DNA from: Gemmatimonadota bacterium
Lineage (GTDB): Bacteria; Latescibacterota; UBA2968; UBA8231
NCBI GenBank assembly: GCA_002712305.1
Contig: PATE01000057.1
Location: 1 to 17,378 of the forward strand
Direction of reading: 5' to 3'
DNA length: 17,378 nucleotides
Shown: piece after piece, positions 11,347 to 15,794 of the stretch
Layout of the letters: each line of letters begins with the position of its first letter
Numbering within the stretch: the stretch's first letter is position 1
Notes under the pieces: generated by a model
What the model was told of the DNA's origin: nothing
The model's input: only the letters and a program-made list of their open reading frames with translations
Databases searched by the model: none
Made by a program: the position numbers and the translations under genes

Positions 11347-11922
11347 ATGCAGCGCGCCCTCCATGAGATCGCCGGTCGATTTCGAGTAACAGGCCTGTCC
11401 TACATGAATCTCTGCGGACACTGTAACGACACGTATGAGGCCTTGCTGCCCGCGATTCTCCCGGGCGACCGTCTCGAGTGCGAGTGGATGTTGGTGCACC
11501 GCCGCGATGCCACGCTGAAGAGCAATCCGGATGTGGAGATCGAAGTCGTAGAGCCCAACTCAGCCCGAGAAGATGAACTGCGAGCGGCTTGCTCAAAGCT
11601 GGCCAGACACGAGTACTACCGCACGTGTGACGCTCATCTTGAGGGCCCTCTCGTCTACGCACACCTCGACGGTGAGGTCGTTGGCACAGCAGGTTGGTTC
11701 ATCGCCGGCGGGTTAGCTCGTTTTCGCAGCATCCGTACCGTCGAACACCTGCGTCGCCGCGGCGTGGCGACCAGCATGATCCGCTTCATCCAACAACAGC
11801 CGCAGGTCCGAGAGCAGGATGGGCTTGTCATCTTCTGCGACACGGAGGACACGATTCATCTGTACGAACGTCTCGGTTTTGTACGGCACGGTTACCTATG
11901 GGCCTTGTTCCGCCCTCTTTGA
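11347..11922 (+). CDS. GNAT-family N-acetyltransferase (intact part)
   Basis: A GNAT acetyltransferase that would transfer acetyl from acetyl-CoA to an unidentified amine. From the ATG at 11347 it has 191 residues; the GNAT core is in the C-terminal two thirds: VYAHLDGEVVGTAGWFIAGG (about 102-121, strands 2-4), the acetyl-CoA pyrophosphate loop RTVEHLRRRGVATSMIRFI (about 129-147, the R-R-x-G-x-A signature), and FCDTEDTIHLYERLGFVRHGY (about 163-183, last strands). The start at 11347 has no convincing ribosome site and lies inside the domain. The natural start was probably the ATG at 11173 overlapping the kinase stop, which would give 249 residues, but a TAA at codon 5 interrupts that frame. 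The gene is thus either a fresh pseudogene, translated as a truncated form, or affected by a base error. Confidence 0.8.
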   Translation: MQRALHEIAGRFRVTGLSYMNLCGHCNDTYEALLPAILPGDRLECEWMLVHRRDATLKSNPDVEIEVVEPNSAREDELRAACSKLARHEYYRTCDAHLEGPLVYAHLDGEVVGTAGWFIAGGLARFRSIRTVEHLRRRGVATSMIRFIQQQPQVREQDGLVIFCDTEDTIHLYERLGFVRHGYLWALFRPL

Positions 11923-11999: not shown

Positions 12000-12386
12000 A
12001 TGCAGACGAACGAAGATCCGAAGGTCGTGATGAGGCCGGCCCCTCATCGCCTTCGAGTTGTTTTCGGCGAGCAGACCATCGCCGACAGCGCCCAAGCACT
12101 GGTCATGGATGAGACGGATCATCCGCCGGTGTACTACTTCCCCATGTCTGACGTGCGAATGGACCTGCTGGAACCTACTGACCTCGGCAGTACGTGACCG
12201 TGGAAAGGTGAGGCCAGGTACTGGTCTGTGAGAGTGAGCGATAAGGTGTCGGAGAATGCGGCATGGAACTATCCGGAACCTGTCGAAGCATGTCCCGACA
12301 TCGCCGAATACGTCGCCTTCTACTGGGATCGTGTCGACGCCTGGTATGAGGACGGTGAGCAACTACTGCAGCAGCCCACCCCTTAA
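12000..12386 (+). CDS. DUF427 (NTP_transf_9) family protein with in-frame TGA at the conserved cysteine; candidate selenoprotein
   Basis: Read from the ATG at 12000 (GGGAG seven bases upstream) the first 65 codons match the DUF427 opening: HRLRVVFGEQTIADSAQALV, then VYYFPMSDVRMDLLEPTD. A TGA at 12195-12197 follows T65. The same frame continues without another stop for 62 codons as PWKGEARYWSVRV, AAWNYPEPVEACPDIAEYVAFYW, to TAA at 12384-12386, giving the usual family length (128 residues). The TGA falls exactly where DUF427 proteins have the Cys of T-x-C-P-x-K-G. Two readings are possible: selenocysteine inserted at UGA, supported by a hairpin at 12211-12227, or a nonsense mutation of TGC/TGT leaving a 65-residue fragment. 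The biochemical role of DUF427 is not established. It sits in a plus-strand run between the acetyltransferase and a small membrane protein. Confidence 0.78.
12211..12227 (+). promoter_or_regulatory. SECIS-like hairpin just after the in-frame TGA
   Basis: AGGCCAG, loop GTA, CTGGTCT form a 7-bp stem (one G-U pair). The stem begins 13 nt and the loop 20 nt after the TGA at 12195-12197. Bacterial SECIS elements are known as short stems directly after the UGA with G and U in the apical loop at about this distance. In E. coli fdhF an AGGU sequence occupies almost the same place, shifted by one nucleotide. A bulged U as in fdhF is not evident. Short stems also arise by chance in GC-rich DNA. Confidence 0.42.
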
Positions 12387-12830: not shown

Positions 12831-14498
12831 GCGAAGGGCCCTGCTGATCTGCTCCACATCCAGGGCGCCGTCGCCGATGACGACCGCCTCGATCGATCCT
12901 TCGAATCTCGCCGCGCTGTCTGCAAACTGACCGATCGCAATCTCCGCGTCACTCCGTTGTAGGGCCCCCGAACCCACGATCTCGGTCACGACAGCGCCGT
13001 CGACGATCAGACGAAGTGCGCCCTGACTGTAGACCCCAGCGACCTCATGTGCCCCCGGGCCCAGCGCCTGGTGAGCAGCGGCACTGATGGGACCCCGGTC
13101 CGTATTGACGATGAAGCTCGGGCCGGGAACAGCTGCGCAGAGTCCGCCATTGTGACCATAGTCGCTGTGGCGGAGGGCAAAGGTGCCTTCGGCCAGTGTG
13201 TCGTAGCGCAGGATTCGGCCATGGAACTCGTCGTCGTCACACACGGGTGCTCCATACAGAAATCGTCCGTCAAACACGCCCCCGTTGTAGCCGATCGTCT
13301 TCATACCTCCCACATGCCCGGCGTCGCAGGCAGTCCAGTTCGCTGCATCGTCGAAGTCGCCGAGTGTGTCGAAGCGAAGGAAGTTTGAATGGTGCTTGCC
13401 TTGTGGGTTGTTCCAGGGCATGAAATACGCGTATCGCCCGTCGAAAAGCCCACCGTCGAAACCACCAGTGTCCAAACCGGCCGTTCCACTCACGTCACGA
13501 GTTGACCAGCTCTCATCGTCAGAAAAATCACCATTCGTATCACATCGGACGATCACGCCGTGGCTGTAGGCCACCAGGTAGAGATAACGCCCATCGAACA
13601 CGGCCCCCACAAACCAACCATCCTTCCGAAACCTGCTCACATCATAGCTGTGCCAGCTGCCGGAATCCTCGAAACGTCCACGTGTGTCAAAGCGCAGCAC
13701 GAGTCCATTGCTCAGGGGCACGAAATACACATAGCGCCCATCGACGGCGGCGCCGTCGAAGTTTGTGGCACGCTCTGACAGAGGCTTGCTGTCGAAGCGC
13801 TGCCAACTGTCTGGATTCGCAAACTCCGAATGGGTGTCGTAACGCATGAACTGGCCACTGTGTTTGTCTTCCAGGATGGACTCGTAGGTAGACGTACCTT
13901 CATACCCCGGAGGGAAATAGACGAACCGACCATCGAAGGCGATACCTTGGTGGGAGTGGATCATCCCCATGTCGTAGGATTGCCAGCTGGCGCGATCTTT
14001 GAAACCAGAGCGTGTGTCGTAACGCAACACACGGCTGTGATACTGATGCCCCTCGTCCTGCGGCGAGAAGTAGACATATCGCCCATCGAAAGCAGCGCCA
14101 TAGTAGTTGACCGTACGCAGGTGGGTAACATGCTCAACATCGAAGGCCGTGTAGCTGCTCGGGTCGTCAAAATCACCGAGCGTGTCGTAGCGCAGTACGC
14201 GGCCGTGCACAGAATCGCGCAGCCTGGAATCCCGGTTGGGCGAGAAGTAGATGTAGCGCCCATCAAAAACGCCGCCCATGTATCCGGCACAGACGAGCCC
14301 GTCAGTATGCGTAGCATCGTAGGAGGAGAAGGCGTCGAAATCAGACGCCAGCGTCCACTGCGCCACGAGAGCCTGACTGCGCTCTGCGCCTGAACCTGTG
14401 GATCGAAACCGCACGGCGACGGTGAGTTGGTCGGAAAGCTCGATCGCAGGCACGCGGCCGGTGGTGATCTGTTGCTGTGAGAGATGGATCATTGGCAT
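12810..14498 (-). CDS. Seven-repeat beta-propeller inserted into a LamG-like jelly-roll domain
   Basis: A large repeat protein, 562 residues from the ATG at 14498 (GGAA seven bases upstream). The frame is open to a TTG at 14567, but those 23 residues look non-coding. In numbering from 14567, residues about 88-460 hold seven units of 50-60 residues with the core G-x-x-F-D-G-R-Y-x-Y-F-x-P, then L-R-Y-D-T-x-G-x-F, then S-W-x-x-Y-D. The last unit lacks the S-W-x-x-Y-D strand, while residues 75-86 (SDFDAFSSYDAT) before unit 1 supply one, as in propeller ring closure. Outside the ring, residues 40-71 (LTVAVRFRSTG, ALVAQW) and 464-580 (GAHEVAGVYSQGALRLIVDG, AEIAIGQF, FEGSIEAVVIGDGALDVEQI) together look like one LamG/concanavalin-type jelly roll split by the propeller. 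No signal peptide. Possibly glycan or surface binding (inference). Confidence 0.87.
   Translation of the reverse strand: MPMIHLSQQQITTGRVPAIELSDQLTVAVRFRSTGSGAERSQALVAQWTLASDFDAFSSYDATHTDGLVCAGYMGGVFDGRYIYFSPNRDSRLRDSVHGRVLRYDTLGDFDDPSSYTAFDVEHVTHLRTVNYYGAAFDGRYVYFSPQDEGHQYHSRVLRYDTRSGFKDRASWQSYDMGMIHSHQGIAFDGRFVYFPPGYEGTSTYESILEDKHSGQFMRYDTHSEFANPDSWQRFDSKPLSERATNFDGAAVDGRYVYFVPLSNGLVLRFDTRGRFEDSGSWHSYDVSRFRKDGWFVGAVFDGRYLYLVAYSHGVIVRCDTNGDFSDDESWSTRDVSGTAGLDTGGFDGGLFDGRYAYFMPWNNPQGKHHSNFLRFDTLGDFDDAANWTACDAGHVGGMKTIGYNGGVFDGRFLYGAPVCDDDEFHGRILRYDTLAEGTFALRHSDYGHNGGLCAAVPGPSFIVNTDRGPISAAAHQALGPGAHEVAGVYSQGALRLIVDGAVVTEIVGSGALQRSDAEIAIGQFADSAARFEGSIEAVVIGDGALDVEQISRALRSGDAGA
13158..14300 (-). 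repeat. Seven tandem propeller-blade repeats (about 150-180 bp each)
   Basis: The blade units are also visible in DNA: phrases encoding FDGRYxYF and LRYDT recur seven times (for example the minus-strand reading of cgcccatcgaa and gtgtcgtaacgc). Spacing varies because the loops after YFxP differ in length, so this is protein-level repetition rather than a recent DNA duplication. Confidence 0.8.
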
Positions 14499-14620
14499 AT
14501 CAGTTCCGACTCGATTCGGTGAAGCACATTCACAGCAGCAGGATTCCGGAGTGTGCATCGTTGGCAAGATAGCAGGGGTGCAAACCCTGCCACACCGGCG
14601 TCGGCATGTGCCAGCTCACG

Positions 14621-14648
14621 TTGACGGGTCCGACAATCATCATATCGT
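14621..14648 (+). promoter_or_regulatory. Candidate sigma70-type promoter for dsbB-dsbA
   Basis: TTGACG (14621-14626) and TATCGT (14643-14648) with a 16-nt spacer, 37 nt upstream of the dsbB ATG. This gives 5/6 and 4/6 matches to consensus. It lies in the gap between the divergent propeller gene and dsbB (14499-14685). Confidence 0.4.
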
Positions 14649-14685
14649 CTACCAGGAGTCTTCACCAACCCACGGGGAACCTGAT

Positions 14686-15144
14686 ATGGAAAAAGCCGAT
14701 GCTCCCGAAACGGGCGAATCCGGGTCATCAGATGAAGACTGGATGCTGCTGTTCGCGGCCTGGCTCGTGGTCACGATTTCAGCCCTGGGCAGCCTGTTTT
14801 TCAGCCAGGTCATGGATTTCGCTCCCTGCATACTGTGCTGGTATCAGCGGATCTTCCTGTTCCCGATGGTAATCGTCCTCGGACGGGCCCTGTTCCCTCT
14901 CGATCGTCACGTCGCGAAATACGCTCTTCCCCTGGCCATGGGCGGCTGGTTGCTGGCTGCCTATCACAATCTCCTCTACCACGGTGTGATCCCGGCGAGC
15001 ATGCAGCCCTGCACACACGGCGTGTCGTGTACGGAGGAGTATGTTGACCTGTTCGGGTTCCTCTCGATTCCGATGTTGTCCCTGCTCTCGTTTACTTCGC
15101 TGATCGCCCTCTTGATCGTCTTCAGAAGGAGAAGTCTGCATTGA
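14686..15144 (+). CDS. dsbB: Disulfide bond formation protein DsbB/BdbC-type
   Basis: A 152-residue four-helix membrane protein that reoxidises a DsbA-like partner and passes electrons to quinone. Membrane spans lie at about 19-41, 57-71, 78-98 and 121-146. Both redox pairs are present: Cys48-Cys51 in APCILCWYQR (the family's CxxC-W-x-Q-R signature) and Cys109-Cys115 in QPCTHGVSC in the second periplasmic loop. The spacing is that of the compact BdbC type. An acidic, non-family N-terminal tail of about 17 residues precedes the first helix. The ATG at 14686 has GGGGAA upstream; the frame is open back to 14398 but that part is antisense to the propeller gene. The stop overlaps the TTG start of the dsbA-like gene (TTGA). 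Confidence 0.95.
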   Translation: MEKADAPETGESGSSDEDWMLLFAAWLVVTISALGSLFFSQVMDFAPCILCWYQRIFLFPMVIVLGRALFPLDRHVAKYALPLAMGGWLLAAYHNLLYHGVIPASMQPCTHGVSCTEEYVDLFGFLSIPMLSLLSFTSLIALLIVFRRRSLH

Positions 15145-15794
15145 AGCGCAATGTGTTCATCGGAGTCTGCCTGGTACTGATCGTGGGCTTCTATGCAGCG
15201 GCCACGGCCTATCGCGCGTGGCGCGTATCCGAACTCGGATTCATGGCCGAATCGAATGCGTCGCTCTTTATCAGGCCCCACTCACCCACGCTGGGGGATG
15301 ACGGTGCCCGTGTATATCTGGTGAAATTCACGGATCCCGCCTGCGAGACGTGTGCGTCTTTCTCGAAATTCACGAAAGATGCCCTGGCGGCCTTCCCCGG
15401 ACGCATTAAGCTGGTCATTCGTTACGCGCCCTTCCACATGGGGGCAGAAGGGGCCGTCCGAATTCTCGAAGCGGCCAAGAAGCAGGGAAAGTTCTGGGAA
15501 ACGTTGGATCTGCTGTATCAGAACCAGAGCACATGGACGCGCCATCACCAGGTGCTGGTGCATGAGATCTGGCCTCTGCTGCCGGAGTTGGGGCTCGACC
15601 TGGAGCGCCTCCGGCAGGACATGTCGAGTCCCGAAATCACGGCCATCATCGAGCAGGACAAGGCCGACGCAGAAGAGTTGGGGGTGCGAAAAACGCCGGG
15701 GTTCTTCGTCAACGGAAAACCCCTGGAGCCCTTCGGCGCTCGTCCGCTGGCAGAACTGATCAAAGCAGAGATTCGAGCGAACTATCCGGAGTGA
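15141..15794 (+). CDS. DsbA/BdbD-like thiol:disulfide oxidoreductase, membrane-anchored
   Basis: A 217-residue thioredoxin-fold oxidase, the partner of the DsbB just upstream. Residues about 5-23 are an uncleaved-looking signal anchor, then a short stalk, and the thioredoxin domain from about 57. The active site is Cys68-x-x-Cys71 in DPACETCASF. The helical insert lies at about 100-175 (AVRILEAAKKQGKFWETLDLL), and the cis-proline is Pro186 in VRKTPGFFVNG. This is the arrangement of the DsbA-like thioredoxin_4 group (BdbD type). The start is the TTG at 15141, overlapping the dsbB stop, with AAGGAG about ten bases upstream, so the two are cotranslated. The last bases face the convergent BlaI-type gene. 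Confidence 0.93.
   Translation: MKRNVFIGVCLVLIVGFYAAATAYRAWRVSELGFMAESNASLFIRPHSPTLGDDGARVYLVKFTDPACETCASFSKFTKDALAAFPGRIKLVIRYAPFHMGAEGAVRILEAAKKQGKFWETLDLLYQNQSTWTRHHQVLVHEIWPLLPELGLDLERLRQDMSSPEITAIIEQDKADAEELGVRKTPGFFVNGKPLEPFGARPLAELIKAEIRANYPE

Follow-up and report, generated by a model that had tools for sequence, protein, structure and literature searches.

A DUF427 gene with in-frame UGA at the conserved cysteine codon very probably encodes a selenoprotein

Selenocysteine (Sec) generally sits at reactive sites of proteins; in methionine sulfoxide reductase B (MsrB), the reactive residue is either Cys or Sec. A catalogue from 2026 holds 119 prokaryotic selenoprotein families, with an in-frame UGA followed by a hairpin, pairs of Sec- and Cys-containing homologues and the SelABCD machinery (PMC13188914). 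Most of the characterised families display a thioredoxin-like fold, whereas DUF427 (PF04248) adopts the beta-tent fold. According to PMC4287342, DUF427 shares this fold with MsrB, but their sequence similarity is not significant, and DUF427 systematically lacks the zinc site that its beta-tent relatives have. Here, a DUF427 gene was analysed on contig PATE01000057.1 of a Gemmatimonadota bacterium (assembly GCA_002712305.1; Latescibacterota in GTDB), of which the whole 17,378-nt stretch is referred to as the window. In contrast to the Cys proteins of the family (such as 3DJM), the product of this gene would carry Sec at the position of their Cys, and a hairpin resembling a bacterial Sec insertion sequence (SECIS) follows the codon.

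The ATG at 12000 is in frame with a TGA at 12195-12197, after which 62 codons (12198-12383) lead to a TAA at 12384-12386. The features of the locus are the following:

12000..12386, + strand: predicted DUF427 selenoprotein gene, 128 amino acids, Sec as residue 66, stop TAA
12054..12329, + strand: PF04248 (NTP_transf_9 / DUF427) domain
12195..12197, + strand: predicted Sec UGA codon at the conserved Cys site of the family (T-x-C/U-P-W-K-G)
12211..12227, + strand: SECIS-like hairpin, 7 bp
12218..12220, + strand: apical loop GUA of the hairpin, G first, 20 nt past the UGA

With the TGA translated as Sec, the product matched the PF04248 profile over residues 19-110 without frameshift and with a score of 122.6 bits (curated cut-off 22.1 bits), which places it clearly in DUF427. 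Alignment with homologues revealed the TGA at the position of the Cys in T-x-C-P-W-K-G. The preliminary description of the window had located the TGA at this conserved Cys and had seen 62 family-like codons up to the TAA; direct reading and the profile alignment bear out both points. No second PF04248 match was found in the source genome.

The same description had reported a 7-bp stem with a GUA loop 13 nt past the TGA, and this was found exactly as described: AGGCCAG (12211-12217) and CTGGTCT (12221-12227) enclose the loop GTA (12218-12220), which lies 20 nt from the TGA. The published bacterial SECIS model asks for a loop of 3-9 nt with G among its first two bases, a stem of 4-16 bp, a distance of 16-37 nt from the UGA and an energy of -7.5 or below (PMC13188914). 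The hairpin of the window fits this model with its GUA loop, 7 bp, spacing of 20 and -7.7 kcal/mol, and an equally stable model hairpin was obtained in 0.15% of 2000 synonymous-codon shuffles of the same stretch. Mean regional folding energy was -11.4 kcal/mol for the TGA forms and -5.5 kcal/mol for the Cys forms; among the latter, 5% contain a model hairpin with an energy no higher than -7.5. Across the six genomes of the window's group, the 17-nt block GAGGCCAGGTACTGGTC (12210-12226) is invariant. Four of the five degenerate hairpin codons are invariant in this group, compared with 5 of the 48 outside the hairpin (p 0.002); the other 43 of these 48 vary although the residue does not. The Arg codon is AGG in all six genomes; nearly all Cys forms have CGN there. 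A second group of 14 genomes displays a different hairpin (GACGCT/C ... AGCGTC), in which three genomes show a compensatory exchange of a C-G for a U-A pair, the 5' change being synonymous and the 3' change replacing Val by Ile. RNAalifold found no structure common to all 16 forms, as the hairpins differ between the groups; taken separately, each group folds.

Relatives with UGA at the same codon were then considered. A first scan of genome contigs yielded 79 loci, and six genomes, including that of the window, showed TGA at the Cys codon in an otherwise stop-free domain. Further UGA forms were added by searching 393 genomes of the class Dehalococcoidia and one order. Base-by-base reading established TGA at the identical codon in a total of 22 genomes: two belong to a single genus (the window's genome G000, and G001) and 20 to the class Dehalococcoidia (G100-G103, G385, G324, G439, G282, G172, G367, G239, G342, G502, G618, G496, G497, G495, G498, G109 and G169). 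The search for TGA homologues that the preliminary description had proposed thus gave 21 other genomes, one of them in the window's genus. Identity of these relatives to the window product is 42% at the lowest. The contig that carries the gene is 2.5 Mb long in G367 and 2.9 Mb in G618, so that assembly fragmentation does not explain the TGA. Coding constraint persists beyond the UGA: between the window and G001, the nonsynonymous and synonymous divergences (dN, dS) were 0.18 and 1.33 on the 5' side of the TGA, and 0.086 and 1.18 on the 3' side. The region past the TGA is under purifying selection and is therefore not a dead reading frame.

The machinery for Sec was sought in the source genome, as had also been suggested, and tRNA-Sec, SelA, SelB and SelD were all found. 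ARAGORN confirmed a tRNA-Sec (UCA) for the source genome of the window as well as for 14 other UGA genomes (15 of the 16 tested, the 22 less the six added last), and selA was present in 16 of 16 tested. SelB, searched in the window's genome only, scored 350 bits. In 7 of 7 genomes searched, the Sec site of SelD itself was a UGA. In the SelD gene of the window's genome (L199 1528, G000:C93), the UGA lies in TCG-U-AAK and a strong hairpin follows; within this genome, the gene acts as an internal control for the decoding of UGA as Sec. Another SelD-like match, weaker and free of stops, is located at G000:C128:10544-11308. Several genomes with Cys forms also harbour tRNA-Sec, while three do not. 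The preliminary claim of a selenoprotein is supported by this machinery, by the 21 other genomes and by the selection past the TGA, and we consider it nearly certain that the gene at 12000-12386 encodes one.

Some observations weigh against this conclusion. The plain regional folding energy of the window alone is not unusual (p 0.53), and the hairpins of L139, L145 and L150 miss the strict ungapped SECIS model, although bulged versions of them fold. The pair-count control for covariation (10 sequences, 500 shuffles) was mixed and is not decisive alone: shuffles reached as high a value in 2 of 500 cases for double-change cells and in 140 of 500 for pairs with a double change. In G103, a UGA form occurs with a partial selA, but tRNA-Sec was not found in this genome of uncertain completeness. 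Finally, the support is computational, and Sec insertion itself is inferred from it.

The structure predicted for the product (mean confidence score, pLDDT, of 92) was compared with known folds. It matched 3DJM with a Z of 17.8 and a root-mean-square deviation of 1.7 over 115 residues, confirming the DUF427 beta-tent assignment. The other beta-tent matches were Mis18, Yippee, RIG-I and cereblon, with Z of about 5-9; MsrB was not among the matches listed. In the model, a strand ends at Sec66, next to the nearly invariant K69 and the invariant G70. It is proposed that SelB would deliver Sec-tRNA-Sec to the ribosome by binding the hairpin at 12211-12227 just past the UGA, and that reading of the UGA at 12195-12197 as Sec would give a single-domain DUF427 protein of 128 amino acids. 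Sec would then stand in place of the conserved Cys at a strand end of the beta-tent fold, the fold of MsrB, most likely as the reactive, and probably redox, nucleophile of the domain. From where Sec66 lies in the model, its conservation and the sites at which proteins usually have Sec, a catalytic redox role appears probable.

Alternatively, Sec could be structural, or bind a metal or selenium, without taking part in catalysis. Tandem proteins indeed often have Asp or Ser at the site in one of their domains. However, each of the 70 two-domain proteins read has a Cys or Sec in one domain or in both: Asp or Ser in the first domain goes with Cys in the second, and Ser in the second goes with Sec in the first (a few mis-registered rows of this table were read by eye). 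Such complementary loss of Cys was seen at L037, L120, L147 and other two-domain loci. The usual occurrence of Sec at reactive sites and the systematic lack of the zinc site in DUF427 (PMC4287342) also argue against a non-catalytic Sec, which we regard as unlikely. For the family as a whole we put forward, tentatively and with slightly less than even confidence, that DUF427 may be a family of thiol/selenol redox enzymes on the beta-tent fold, with a mechanism related to that of MsrB; Sec would have arisen in it on two or more occasions, and no tandem protein would be without an active chalcogen site.

It could also be argued that the gene is a pseudogene whose Cys codon has mutated to the stop TGA, as nonsense changes do exist in the family. 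Codons of 173 domain copies (about 19,000 codons) were surveyed. The Sec-site codon is TGC or TGT in 107 copies and never TAA or TAG among the copies read, and apart from this codon TGA was confined to terminal stops and a single broken fragment. Other stops within otherwise intact domains were just the TAG of G019 and the TGA of G595, both at the conserved Trp codon. The DUF427 loci interrupted at the Trp codon, L023 696-956 (by TAG) and L224 (G595:C160; by TGA), are apparent pseudogenes, and in L224 the Cys is also lost (Cys to Arg). In contrast to the UGA forms, the copies of G019 and G595 look like real decay. The TGA conserved at one codon in 22 genomes and the purifying selection past it, along with the conserved hairpin, refute the pseudogene explanation in substance and leave it very improbable. 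The open frame would also be accounted for if UGA had been generally reassigned (e.g. to Trp or Gly), or were simply read through, with no Sec involved. This is hardly credible, since the UGA aligns with Cys and not with Trp or Gly, UGA serves as the stop of ordinary genes, among them the GNAT gene (stop at 11920-11922) and the G001 copy of the DUF427 gene, and the genome has tRNA-Sec, SelA, SelB and a SelD in its Sec form.

Returning to the selenoprotein, its history was followed in a tree with 15 UGA rows and few alignment columns relative to the number of rows. UGA forms were found at two places, as a group of 13 made mostly of two-domain proteins, and as G109 and G169 near the Cys form of G199; at least two separate changes from Cys to Sec would be needed by this tree. 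The copies of the window and of G001, both without second domain, are nested in a group otherwise of the class Dehalococcoidia, which suggests a transfer of UGA-DUF427 between phyla. The G001 copy (L160, G001:C88) has neighbours that differ from those of the window copy despite the common genus. No gene neighbours are common to both within about 7-8 kb, giving no conserved operon, and no DUF427 neighbour is common across the UGA groups. Further downstream in the window, about 2 kb from the DUF427 gene, lie adjacent DsbB-like and DsbA/thioredoxin-like genes (14398-15794).

The preliminary description did not count DUF427 among the described selenoprotein families, and the published catalogues agree. 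DUF427/PF04248 is absent from the 119 families (PMC13188914; supplementary files outside the search), from a 2022 review and from the deep-Sep paper. Among the papers searched, none linked PF04248 with selenoproteins; the two found for DUF427 and selenoproteins do not concern a DUF427 selenoprotein, and the other DUF427 text matches checked are DUF4277 or DUF4278. No NCBIfam model matched the product, while many catalogue entries do have one. We therefore call DUF427 a new selenoprotein family with a known mechanism; an unreported annotation is possible, as GenBank annotations and supplementary files lay outside the search. It would add one more family to the bacterial selenoproteins, found in genomes of the class Dehalococcoidia and in the window's genus. 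UGA-containing DUF427 genes have probably been annotated as truncated, or missed. For the widespread and uncharacterised DUF427, of which a structure is solved, the finding pinpoints the likely reactive residue.
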